Of a stretch of 64,000 bases of DNA, positions 2,609 to 6,558 are shown piece by piece. Each line of letters begins with the position of its first letter. Position 1 is the stretch's first letter. Source of the DNA: a virus; IMG/VR virus record IMGVR_UViG_3300041583_000385, positions 22,323 to 86,322 of that record. One strand, written 5' to 3'. Both the position numbers and the translations under genes were made by a program. The notes below the pieces were generated by a model. That model was not told where the DNA came from. It worked only from the letters and a program-made list of their open reading frames with translations, and did not search any database.

Positions 2609-3306
2609 AGCATTTTAGCTACGGATTTATGTTGTTTATCTGTTAAATATCCTCTTTTCTCATAAAAATCAAGAACACTACTTAAAAATGAATTTGAATC
2701 TTTATTTAATTTGAATCTCAATTGTCTTATTAAATTAACCGACTTATCTGTGTCTTCATTAAGAATTTGGTTTAATTTAATATTTCTTAGCTCAGATGTT
2801 CCAATTTTTTTATTTAAGTACTCCATAAACTCATTCCATTGTACTTCTTCAATTGAATAATAATTTTTAGTAAATGGACTTATTATAATTTTTAAACCAT
2901 TACCCTCTTGTAGTAAGTATAGAGAATTAACGGGGCAATTTTGATACCTAACACTTATCCTAGTGTCTCTTTTTGATATATCAACAAATACAGTATCTAA
3001 GTCATAAAAGTTATCAGGATCAAATGTAAACACATCTGAATCAAATTCAAATTTACCAAATTCTGATAATAATTTTTCAATATCTTGTAATGTTAAATCA
3101 TTTATTAGAACACCATTATTTATAATAGCTTCAATTGGTTTGAAAAAGTCTTTTTTATTAAATATACTAGGATCCACACGAGCGAAATCAGCGGTCATAG
3201 ATGAAATACCATCTGGTATATAAGGAGTTGTTACCCCACCCCAAGCATTGTATTGGGGCACACCAAAATCATCATCTATTTGTAAACTTATGAAAAAATC
3301 TAACAT
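2602..3306 (-). CDS. Hypothetical protein with C-terminal FYEKRGYLTDKQ motif
   Basis: 234 residues. The last ~35 residues (FLSSVLDFYEKRGYLTDKQ followed by HKSVAKML) form a helix-turn-helix-like motif of the type seen at the ends of several phage replication or recombination proteins, but I cannot name the family. Overlaps its upstream (3300) and downstream (2608) neighbours by 4-7 nt, indicating one operon. Confidence 0.65.
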   Translation of the reverse strand: MLDFFISLQIDDDFGVPQYNAWGGVTTPYIPDGISSMTADFARVDPSIFNKKDFFKPIEAIINNGVLINDLTLQDIEKLLSEFGKFEFDSDVFTFDPDNFYDLDTVFVDISKRDTRISVRYQNCPVNSLYLLQEGNGLKIIISPFTKNYYSIEEVQWNEFMEYLNKKIGTSELRNIKLNQILNEDTDKSVNLIRQLRFKLNKDSNSFLSSVLDFYEKRGYLTDKQHKSVAKMLW

Positions 3307-3647
3307 GATAACTTTTGTTCAGTTAATTTATCTTTTAATTTAATAAGTCCAAACATCTTAGTTCTTTGGAACGTTGGGAATTTATCACCATTCTTAACAA
3401 TCCATTCCATATCATGTAATCTTTTTATGGAATACATAACATAATAAGTAGTATATCTTTTTTTGAATTTTATTTGCATCCAGTTATTGAATAAATAACG
3501 TTTGCTTATTCTAACAAACCCTTCTCTTTTCTTAAACCTCTCTATGCTTTCTTTTAGATTCTCAATAACAACAGAGTATGAGTGACCATCCTCCAATAAT
3601 GCTTGAATTTTTTTGTCAATATGTTCTTCTATTCTACTTGGTTTCAT
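3300..3647 (-). CDS. Small basic hypothetical protein
   Basis: 115 residues, Lys/Arg/Tyr-rich (KFKKRYTTYYVMYSIKRLHD), so possibly nucleic-acid binding. First gene of the three-gene unit 3647-2354, with a TATATTTG box directly upstream. No recognised domain. Confidence 0.6.
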   Translation of the reverse strand: MKPSRIEEHIDKKIQALLEDGHSYSVVIENLKESIERFKKREGFVRISKRYLFNNWMQIKFKKRYTTYYVMYSIKRLHDMEWIVKNGDKFPTFQRTKMFGLIKLKDKLTEQKLSC

Positions 3648-3676: not shown

Positions 3677-3997
3677 TTACCTAATTAGAGATACTGTCCC
3701 ATAGAATATTTTAGAACATTCTGACCCATAAGCAACAACCTCATAAAGGTAAACACCTCTTTCACACAAATTCCCATTATATAATCCATTCCACTTATCA
3801 CCAACAAAAACTAACATACCCCATCGATTATAAATTGAAAGTTTATAACTTGTATAAGAGTTTATATATGTTGGGTAAAACTCACTATTCGTGCTCATTG
3901 TTGGTGTGAAAGCATTTGGTGAAATTATAGTATCATTACATTGTGAAAATGTAAATATTGATAATAGTAATAGAATTGATGTTAATAATATTTTCAT
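3677..3997 (-). CDS. Secreted stand-alone T9SS/CHU_C C-terminal domain protein
   Basis: The ATG at 3997 is chosen because it starts a clean signal peptide (MKILLTSILLLLSIFTFS, then Q, a usual Bacteroidota cleavage context). A longer frame would run back into the HAD gene. The mature ~87 residues are essentially one gliding-motility-associated C-terminal (CHU_C, TIGR04131-like) domain: PNAFTP near its start, YKLSIYNRWGMLVF in the middle, GVYLYEV and the final GTVSLIR. In hosts this domain ends large exported adhesins and directs them through type IX secretion. Here no cargo domain is attached. It follows the HAD gene by 4 nt in an operon. Whether it is cargo, anchor or decoy is inference. Confidence 0.85.
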   Translation of the reverse strand: MKILLTSILLLLSIFTFSQCNDTIISPNAFTPTMSTNSEFYPTYINSYTSYKLSIYNRWGMLVFVGDKWNGLYNGNLCERGVYLYEVVAYGSECSKIFYGTVSLIR

Positions 3998-4001
3998 AAG
4001 T

Positions 4002-4574
4002 TTATTTATTATTAGACCAGCCTCTTTTTTCAATTTTTCTAAAATTAGGCTCATCTTTTATTTTATCTAAGTATTTTATTAATTTAAATAGGTATGTATC
4101 ATCAGTATCTCCGTAAAAAGGAGGCATCTTAATAACATTACCATATGAATCAATATGCTCTGGTTTATCATCAACCATCAATACTCTCTCCATATCATAT
4201 CCCCTTTTACTCAATTTGGAAATGTTTTTCTTATACACATAGTGTCCCATTCCACATCCCTCACCATGGTCATATTGTGGTGTGCAATTTTTCTCACTAT
4301 AAAAGAATTTCAATTTAGTAACATCAATATTCATTTTATCAACTAAAAATTCAGCATAGTCTTTACCAGCCGCTGTCCAAATAGCAACATCATAATTTTC
4401 AAATGCGAACTCAATAAATTCTTTTAGACCTGGTCGAAACATAGTTCTATACATACCATCTAAAACATCAAATGAGTTCTTTATAAAATCATAACTCTGT
4501 TTACTTATTTCACTCTCATAAACTGAGTGAAATAAACATTCATCTAAGTCTAATATTAATAATCTGTTTTTCAT
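4002..4574 (-). CDS. HAD-family FCP1/NIF-like phosphatase
   Basis: 190 residues with the NLI-interacting-factor/FCP1 signature: DLDECLFHS at residues ~9-17 (nucleophile Asp), RPGLKEFIEFA, AIWTAA (motif II Thr), and VDDKPEH (motif III acidic pair). The size fits the SCP/FCP1 catalytic domain alone. The substrate cannot be read from sequence; phosphoprotein or nucleic-acid ends are both possible. Its ATG overlaps the stop of the upstream rhomboid remnant (ATGA). Confidence 0.85.
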   Translation of the reverse strand: MKNRLLILDLDECLFHSVYESEISKQSYDFIKNSFDVLDGMYRTMFRPGLKEFIEFAFENYDVAIWTAAGKDYAEFLVDKMNIDVTKLKFFYSEKNCTPQYDHGEGCGMGHYVYKKNISKLSKRGYDMERVLMVDDKPEHIDSYGNVIKMPPFYGDTDDTYLFKLIKYLDKIKDEPNFRKIEKRGWSNNK

Positions 4575-4702
4575 TTTTTGATAAGTTTATTAGCAAAATA
4601 GAATAGTGTTCCTGTTAGATCTCCACCGATATGTGCAAAGTGTGCTATATTATCACCAGGATACATAAACCCACAAAACAATTCAATTGCTATGATTAAT
4701 GG
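4571..4702 (-). pseudogene. C-terminal remnant of a rhomboid protease
   Basis: Directly after the TGA at 4703-4705, and in the same frame, 43 residues remain that match the last transmembrane segment of rhomboid proteases: GDNIAHFAHIGGDLTGTLF, with the H..H..G spacing and hydrophobic flanks, ending KLIKK. There is no start codon or catalytic Ser region. It ends in an ATGA overlap with the HAD gene, so a full rhomboid gene once preceded that gene. Confidence 0.6.
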
Positions 4703-4951
4703 TCATTCACGCTCTACTTTAAAAAATTCGTCATTTTTATAATAACCATCTATATAAGTGTAAATTGTATTACTTGTTTTAGGTTTAAACCATCTTACTC
4801 TAATAACTTCATCACCATCTAACTCTAATGTATCAGTTAATCCATCATCATCAAATCTACCTCTAAAAAGTGGTATATTAAAACTATTTATAACAGCGTA
4901 GTAATTTGTTACAACAAGATTTGATGGTATTATACCTTGTATAAAATCCAT
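4703..4951 (-). CDS. Small hypothetical protein
   Basis: 82 residues, start MDFIQGIIPSNLVV, beta-rich, acidic middle (FDDDGLTDTLELDGDEV). The TGA stop is followed in frame by the rhomboid relic, so this may itself lie at a deletion junction. Start overlaps the stop of the zinc-ribbon gene (TAATG). Confidence 0.6.
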   Translation of the reverse strand: MDFIQGIIPSNLVVTNYYAVINSFNIPLFRGRFDDDGLTDTLELDGDEVIRVRWFKPKTSNTIYTYIDGYYKNDEFFKVERE

Positions 4952-5621: not shown

Positions 5622-5951
5622 ATCCCTACGTATTGATATCAATTGTGTTAAAGATTCATCATCTTTTGGATCATAAGGTCTTCTATTCTCTAGAATCTTT
5701 TCCAAATTCTTTATTTGAGTATTAATAATAGGTATTGAAATTTCTTTCTTATTATAATTTAACCAATCCTCTTTTATGTATCTTGGCATGTTAGAAACGT
5801 CTTTTATATTTTCAATATCATCTTTTAGATAAAAATAGTTATCATTAACTTCTGTTATTATGGTAACAAAGCAAATTAAAGTATGATGTTCATATTCGGT
5901 AATTTGTGATATAATAACCCAAGGATCAATGTTTATTTCCCTATCATCCAT
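5598..5951 (-). CDS. Hypothetical protein
   Basis: 117 residues with a strand-rich N-terminal half (ITEYEHHTLICFVTIITEVNDN) and a helical charged C-terminus. Overlaps the stop of the upstream membrane protein by 8 nt. Not recognised. Confidence 0.6.
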   Translation of the reverse strand: MDDREINIDPWVIISQITEYEHHTLICFVTIITEVNDNYFYLKDDIENIKDVSNMPRYIKEDWLNYNKKEISIPIINTQIKNLEKILENRRPYDPKDDESLTQLISIRRDLIINGII

Positions 5952-6558
5952 TATTTTTACTATAATCTTCTAGAAATACCTTTTCTTCATTTGATAGACT
6001 ATCCATTCCTTTTTTACCAATTTTATCCAAAATATCATCAATATCGAATCTGGAATCATTTTCTTGTTGAATCACTTCAATATCAGATGGTTGATTCATA
6101 CCCTTCATCTGATCTGGATTTATATTAAATGTTTTTTCAAAATCTGGTCTATAAAACTTGAACCCCAATACTTCAACAATATCATTTATTTGCTTTTTAT
6201 ATCTTTTCTCAATAGTAAATACGATATCATCAGTAACATTACTTTCTATTGATGATGATGTATAAATACACTTTTCTTTTTGAAATATAGCTATATCCTT
6301 ACTATCCATCATATAAACAATATCAACTTCTCCATGATCCTTTAACTCAGATTTAATAAAAACCGTATTATTAACACGGTTTTTAAATTCAGATTTCCCT
6401 CTTGATATATTTGATAAAATTTGTTTGAATTGTTCAGTTATGCCTTTTAACATAACATCCTTCTTAATTTTATTATACCACTCTGATATAACTTTATATA
6501 CCATACCACCGATAGCTAAACCAGCAAAAAATACAATTAGAATTTGTAAAATATTCAT
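5944..6558 (-). CDS. Membrane-anchored protein with rhomboid-associated C-terminal motif
   Basis: 204 residues. One N-terminal transmembrane helix (ILIVFFAGLAIGGMVY) is followed by a cytoplasmic basic segment and a middle alpha/beta domain. The last ~32 residues (IDDILDKIGKKGMDSLSNEE...FLEDYSK) match the motif found at the C-termini of many Bacteroidota rhomboid proteins (DUF6576-like). A rhomboid relic lies 1.4 kb away. Function unknown. Confidence 0.65.
   Translation of the reverse strand: MNILQILIVFFAGLAIGGMVYKVISEWYNKIKKDVMLKGITEQFKQILSNISRGKSEFKNRVNNTVFIKSELKDHGEVDIVYMMDSKDIAIFQKEKCIYTSSSIESNVTDDIVFTIEKRYKKQINDIVEVLGFKFYRPDFEKTFNINPDQMKGMNQPSDIEVIQQENDSRFDIDDILDKIGKKGMDSLSNEEKVFLEDYSKNNG

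Follow-up and report, generated by a model that had tools for sequence, protein, structure and literature searches.

What might a phage gain from a secretion tag that carries no cargo? No phages are known to be larger than the megaphages, yet a role has been tested for only a few of their genes. The CHU_C tag is used by host bacteria for sending adhesins to the cell surface, and the window that we analysed (a stretch of 64,000 nucleotides, positions 22323-86322 of the 86,322-base virus record IMGVR_UViG_3300041583_000385) holds on its minus strand a gene (3677..3997; ATG at 3997, stop at 3677) for a 106-aa protein that consists of this tag and a predicted signal peptide. Coordinates, strand and content are those of the initial annotation of this DNA, which had described the product as phage-encoded and nothing but a CHU_C domain after the signal peptide; this description is confirmed here, and the domain is of the T9SS type B class.

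The protein and its sorting domain

The 106-aa protein reads MKILLTSILLLLSIFTFSQ-CNDTIISPNAFTP...SIYNRWGMLVF...KWNGLYNG...GVYLYEV...GTVSLIR. Its N-terminal Sec signal peptide, recognised by inspection and a simple pattern (MKILLTSILLLLSIFTFS; residues 1-18, 3944..3997 on the minus strand; inferred cleavage S18|Q19, with Gln at +1), stands directly before a sorting domain of about residues 25-106, with nothing between the two. A Gln after the cleavage site (the Q-rule) is typical of Bacteroidetes (PMC5837995), and the SQ boundary is common to the lone proteins of the window, of the phage genomes LR745206 and LR756502, and of G001 (a 476-kb IMG/VR record). Within the 86-kb record, the protein is the sole CHU_C match and, by the simple pattern, the sole ORF with a Bacteroidota-style signal peptide. 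A start farther upstream, at 4054, would lengthen the protein to 125 aa, but it is at 3997 that the signal peptide begins, and the layout is shared by the LR745206 copy. A lipoprotein with Cys at residue 20 was rejected, as Gln occupies the lipobox position that needs a small residue and the Cys of the LR745206 copy lies three residues after the Gln.

The domain matches the Pfam CHU_C model with E 4.3e-9 and 36.8 bits over residues 25-89 (cut-off 27 bits), and the NCBIfam model of the T9SS type B sorting domain (TIGR04131) with E 2.2e-7 and 30.9 bits, slightly below its cut-off of 35 bits, in an alignment of residues 26-106 that reaches the last model position. The invariant CHU_C positions P27, F30, P32, G60, W69 and G71 are kept, as are the further positions N28, A29, T31, N37, Y83 and G100, and the motif-like blocks PNAFTP, YNRWG, WNG, GVYLYEV and G.VSLIR are present as candidates for the five conserved motifs A-E of SprB. 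Both the window copy and that of LR745206 lack the GDG.ND stretch of the first motif, as do some host CHU_C domains. Like F. johnsoniae SprB and P. gingivalis PG1035, the protein combines a signal peptide with CHU_C (PF13585; TIGR04131); unlike them, it is phage-encoded and has no cargo, no adjoining PorP/SprF gene and no GDG.ND. They differ from it in size too, with PG1035 migrating at about 50 kDa and SprB being a protein of 669 kDa (PMC9143113).

An AlphaFold2 model from a 78-row alignment gave a beta fold with a mean pLDDT of 80 and a block at 88-96 from residue 51 onward (the domain core). The best PDB fold matches, all of them T9SS proteins, were PorZ, the NucA substrate in the T9SS translocon complex, and PorU, each matched weakly (E 0.003-0.008), and the best viral match was a 108-aa uncultured marine phage protein, aligned end to end with a poor overall rmsd. 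Ig-like folds are widely used, and the weak match to solved T9SS CTDs would also suit a Sec-exported Ig-like domain whose role is unrelated to T9SS, but this is hardly probable at all, as the sequence similarity points specifically to CHU_C and the same slot in relatives holds other T9SS type B proteins (see below). We identify the 106-aa protein, with high confidence, as a lone phage-encoded T9SS type B (CHU_C) domain. PHROGs has no family for it, a close-relative scan of IMG/VR with the protein yielded no confirmed relative, and a promoter and terminator scan found no more than in shuffled sequence.

The slot upstream of ORF115

A stretch of about 100 kb of LR745206.1 (634,780 bp) is matched, in collinear blocks, by 124 of the 185 ORFs of 60 aa or more in the 86-kb record, a count that takes in spurious overlapping frames, and the core proteins of the record are 80-91% identical to their LR745206 counterparts. 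Gene content and order are shared with a genome of the 634-642 kb class, as would suit a Mahaphage-type megaphage. Because the collinear blocks and gene content are common to LR745206, the window most probably comes from the genome of a related megaphage. Among complete huge-phage genomes, Al-Shayeb et al. reported sizes of 634, 636, 642 and 735 kb, and Bacteroidetes hosts were predicted for the Mahaphage-clade genomes above 634 kb (PMC7162821); LR745206 and LR756502 (642,428 bp) are taken here, by size, as members of that set.

The lone gene lies between ORF115 downstream (3300..3647, minus strand) and, upstream, a gene for a 190-aa HAD phosphatase of the NIF/FCP type (4002..4574, minus strand; Pfam NIF, E 8.5e-31), which ends 4 bases short of the start of CHU_C. 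The best-known members of the NIF/FCP family are the phosphatases of the eukaryotic RNA polymerase CTD. A HAD phosphatase gene also precedes the lone CHU_C gene in LR745206 and a 1670-aa cargo protein in LR756502, and an IMG/VR scan with the HAD neighbour found nothing. Beyond it lies a rhomboid protease remnant of which only the C-terminal 43 codons are present (4573..4703, minus strand); this gene is intact in LR745206 (L002:6810-7370), just upstream of the HAD gene, and is found near the cargo slot in several relatives (e.g., L053:5054-5617). Farther upstream, the minus-strand product of 5944-6558 has a membrane-like segment at its N-terminus and a DUF6576 domain at its C-terminus; it adjoins an RlaP-type nucleotidyltransferase and is kept in relatives.

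The LR745206 orthologue, of 107 aa, has the same neighbours in the same place, in the order HAD phosphatase, lone CHU_C, ORF115/116, ORF234/232 and ORF84/85. The two lone proteins are 56% identical over the domain (overall range 54-56%), and Nei-Gojobori estimates were dN 0.36 and dS 1.82 (near saturation), giving a dN/dS of about 0.2; the neighbours, at 65-78% identity, are slower-changing. Judged from these sequences, the lone gene is evolving faster than its neighbours yet under constraint. A fresh truncation was rejected as the whole story, as LR745206 keeps the lone form.

Relatives of the slot were found via the topoisomerase large subunit and then searched for the neighbours present in the window. 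ORF115 consistently borders the cargo slot on its downstream side, and the site just upstream of it varies between relatives: it holds the lone CHU_C gene in the window and LR745206, a form absent from most relatives, and a type B (CHU_C) protein of 734-1670 aa, some with SprB/PKD repeats, in five others. The LR756502 slot runs from HAD through a small secreted-looking protein to a 1670-aa protein with 13 SprB repeats, PKD and CHU_C (L033:2379-7391; LR756502.1 at about 514.4-519.4 kb), and those of L054, L055, L056 and L067 hold CHU_C proteins of 734-740 aa, with SprB and PKD matches in the L054 protein. The 1670-aa protein is, as a side observation, a SprB-like gliding adhesin in a phage, with no SprF gene found. 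A 318-aa protein with a signal peptide fills the slot of L057, and its C-terminus looks by eye, without database support, like a type A tag; no tagged protein was found in the slot of six relatives (L053, L060, L063, L064, L072 and L080). The presence of whole tagged adhesin-like proteins at this site suggests that these megaphages probably rework the surface of the infected cell.

The initial annotation had allowed that the domain might be fused to a cargo in relatives and truncated here. Cargo-fused CHU_C proteins do occur at the same locus; the lone form in LR745206, and its place in the tree apart from the cargos, speak against the truncation. A related scenario is that an ancestor of the window phage and LR745206 lost its cargo, leaving a signal peptide and tag that are tolerated and do little, which would agree with the 734-1670 aa proteins in the slot of five relatives, with the faster change of the lone protein (54-56% identity against 65-78% for its neighbours), and with an AU test that did not reject a grouping of the lone pair with the phage cargo clade (p 0.31). 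Such a remnant is nevertheless unlikely in our judgement, as frame, start and domain are intact in two diverged phages at the dN/dS given above, lone forms occur at other loci in other phages, and the best tree sets the lone pair beside host domains rather than with the slot cargos. In this tree, the window and LR745206 domains pair (100/84) and then group weakly with host domains (93/85), with most phage cargos in a separate group away from them; it rests on 90 columns, an alignment too short to settle the placement of the lone domain. Nor did the AU test reject a single shared origin for the four lone forms (p 0.21), and both in-place reduction of a slot cargo and its replacement remain as candidate origins.

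Lone and cargo-bearing domains in other genomes

CHU_C-only proteins, which had been envisaged in other phages, occur in LR745206, LR756502 and G001. LR756502 encodes a 116-aa protein of signal peptide and CHU_C beside a tRNA nucleotidyltransferase-like gene, and G001 a lone CHU_C protein of 111 aa; both genes lie at loci other than the slot of the window, and both copies keep the GDG/NDG (GDG.ND-type) loop and pass both model cut-offs. Several phages encode a form of 166-206 aa with a signal peptide, one Ig/PKD-like stretch and CHU_C, which is close in length to the 150-235 aa type B signal (PMC12618676), whereas the bare form is shorter. Frames of at most 140 aa numbered 1 among the approximately 150 best of more than 1,000 host matches versus 4 of 12 in the phage records compared (Fisher p about 9e-5), a contrast that is indicative only, with the host list made up of best-scoring matches and the phage records picked after the fact.

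The initial annotation placed the host domain at the end of large proteins, but hosts have small CHU_C proteins too: three Flavobacteriales MAGs (L187, L192 and L208) share a lone CHU_C family of 126-166 aa, flanked by the same genes in each. Like the window protein, members of this family have a signal peptide and CHU_C only; unlike it, they are chromosomal and keep their place next to an AsmA-like gene and genes of metabolism. The CHU_C protein of MT839536.1 (L004, 'Bacteriophage sp.'), which lies beside lytic transglycosylase-like and uvrA-like genes, was set aside by eye as probably a bacterial fragment.

Cargo-bearing CHU_C proteins include further ones of 832, 732 and 1205 aa in LR745206 and one of 898 aa in LR756502, and several of the large megaphage CHU_C proteins have SprB, PKD, Ig or reelin-type repeats. 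These large proteins (in LR745206, LR756502, G001 and others) share with the window protein the tag, the host route and, in five relatives, the slot; they differ from it in their length (734-1670 aa) and in that several bear repeats, of which the window protein has none.

Carriers and possible roles

Type B substrates bind dedicated PorP/SprF carriers and stay anchored (PMC9143113, PMC12635249), and it has been suggested that PG1035 itself caps PorP (PMC9143113). SprF and Fjoh_3951 are carriers in short supply, and type B CTD fusions made in excess are secreted only with an extra carrier; efficient type B secretion reportedly takes more than the conserved domain, with CTDs of 150-235 aa, and each of the five type B motifs of SprB is required for it (PMC12618676). 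A neighbouring carrier gene is usual, not universal, and F. johnsoniae has orphan type B substrates (PMC12618676). PorP/SprF (PF11751) had no match in G000, LR745206 or LR756502, and a host carrier would therefore be needed. In F. columnare, phage resistance accompanies loss of gliding, and the gliding machinery probably includes the phage receptors (PMC7345892).

We tentatively infer that the protein is a megaphage minimal type B substrate, encoded in a variable slot, that uses up host carriers, a reading whose chance we put somewhat below even. Sec would export the protein to the periplasm, and its domain would be taken up by a host PorP/SprF-type carrier at the SprA/Sov translocon; staying carrier-bound, as type B substrates do, the cargo-less protein would act as a cap consuming scarce carriers, with fewer host adhesins of the SprB kind on the surface and, in turn, less gliding and less adsorption of competing phages. 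Alternatively, carriers might be freed from host cargo during infection. A tag without cargo would be suited to titrating a carrier because carriers are scarce and substrates stay bound. The mode put forward in the initial annotation, in which the domain occupies the machinery and blocks adhesins, fits the literature on carriers, because type B substrates stay on scarce PorP/SprF (PMC9143113, PMC12618676, PMC12635249). High carrier specificity counts against capping, since one domain may meet one carrier only, as do the TIGR04131 score slightly below the cut-off and the missing GDG.ND part. For the phage family at large, it is possible, if doubtful, that cargo-less type B tags are competitive inhibitors of dedicated host adhesin carriers, act thereby on the type IX secretion and gliding apparatus, and are encoded in a locus from which sister phages deliver SprB-like replacement adhesins instead.

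The mature protein, of about 88 aa, is shorter than 150-235 aa and may therefore bind carriers without good export. This shortness relative to the minimal efficient type B signal, together with the missing GDG part where all five SprB motifs are needed (PMC12618676), would also be consistent with a protein that binds carrier or translocon in the periplasm, goes unexported, and blocks type B or even all T9SS traffic; we rate such a jam as quite unlikely, as in LR756502 and G001 the lone copies retain a complete GDG/NDG motif and score above the TIGR04131 cut-off. The protein might instead be an ordinary small surface protein, T9SS-exported and carrier-anchored as a protective cap or coat, that leaves host secretion unblocked. 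Related phages encode several cargo-bearing T9SS proteins, which would make surface proteins a general habit, and type A cargo is already present in Cryophage (PMC7468147), but the window protein has no effector part outside the tag, and a bare domain of this length may not be exported efficiently by the type B route (PMC12618676), so that this role also seems improbable.

If the capping reading holds, the scarcity of type B carriers means that gliding adhesins, themselves tied to phage sensitivity, could be turned off by a small tag on its own, and the bare tag would be a natural tool for probing carrier specificity. More broadly, a recurrent T9SS-tagged set of SprB-like cargo or bare tags suggests that the surface of the infected Bacteroidota cell is rebuilt. 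Cryophage proteins are also predicted to use the host T9SS, and superinfection exclusion was proposed for them; however, that phage (reported in 2020) has three type A T9SS proteins, enzymes and a PA14 protein whose tag is that of the PorV route (PMC7468147), whereas the window protein is type B (PorP/SprF route), has no cargo and comes from a megaphage. A partial literature search turned up no report of megaphages with type B cargo, SprB-like proteins or lone domains. Phage T9SS type A cargo is known (PMC7468147); what appears to be new is type B cargo in megaphages, together with the lone domains. The megaphages have type A proteins too, namely one of 199 aa (Por_Secre_tail) and one weaker in LR745206, and one of 186 aa in LR756502 (W01, LR745206.1, 298450-298626; W02, LR756502.1, 325937-326134), and in both genomes the 186-199 aa proteins lie downstream of a DnaJ-like gene.
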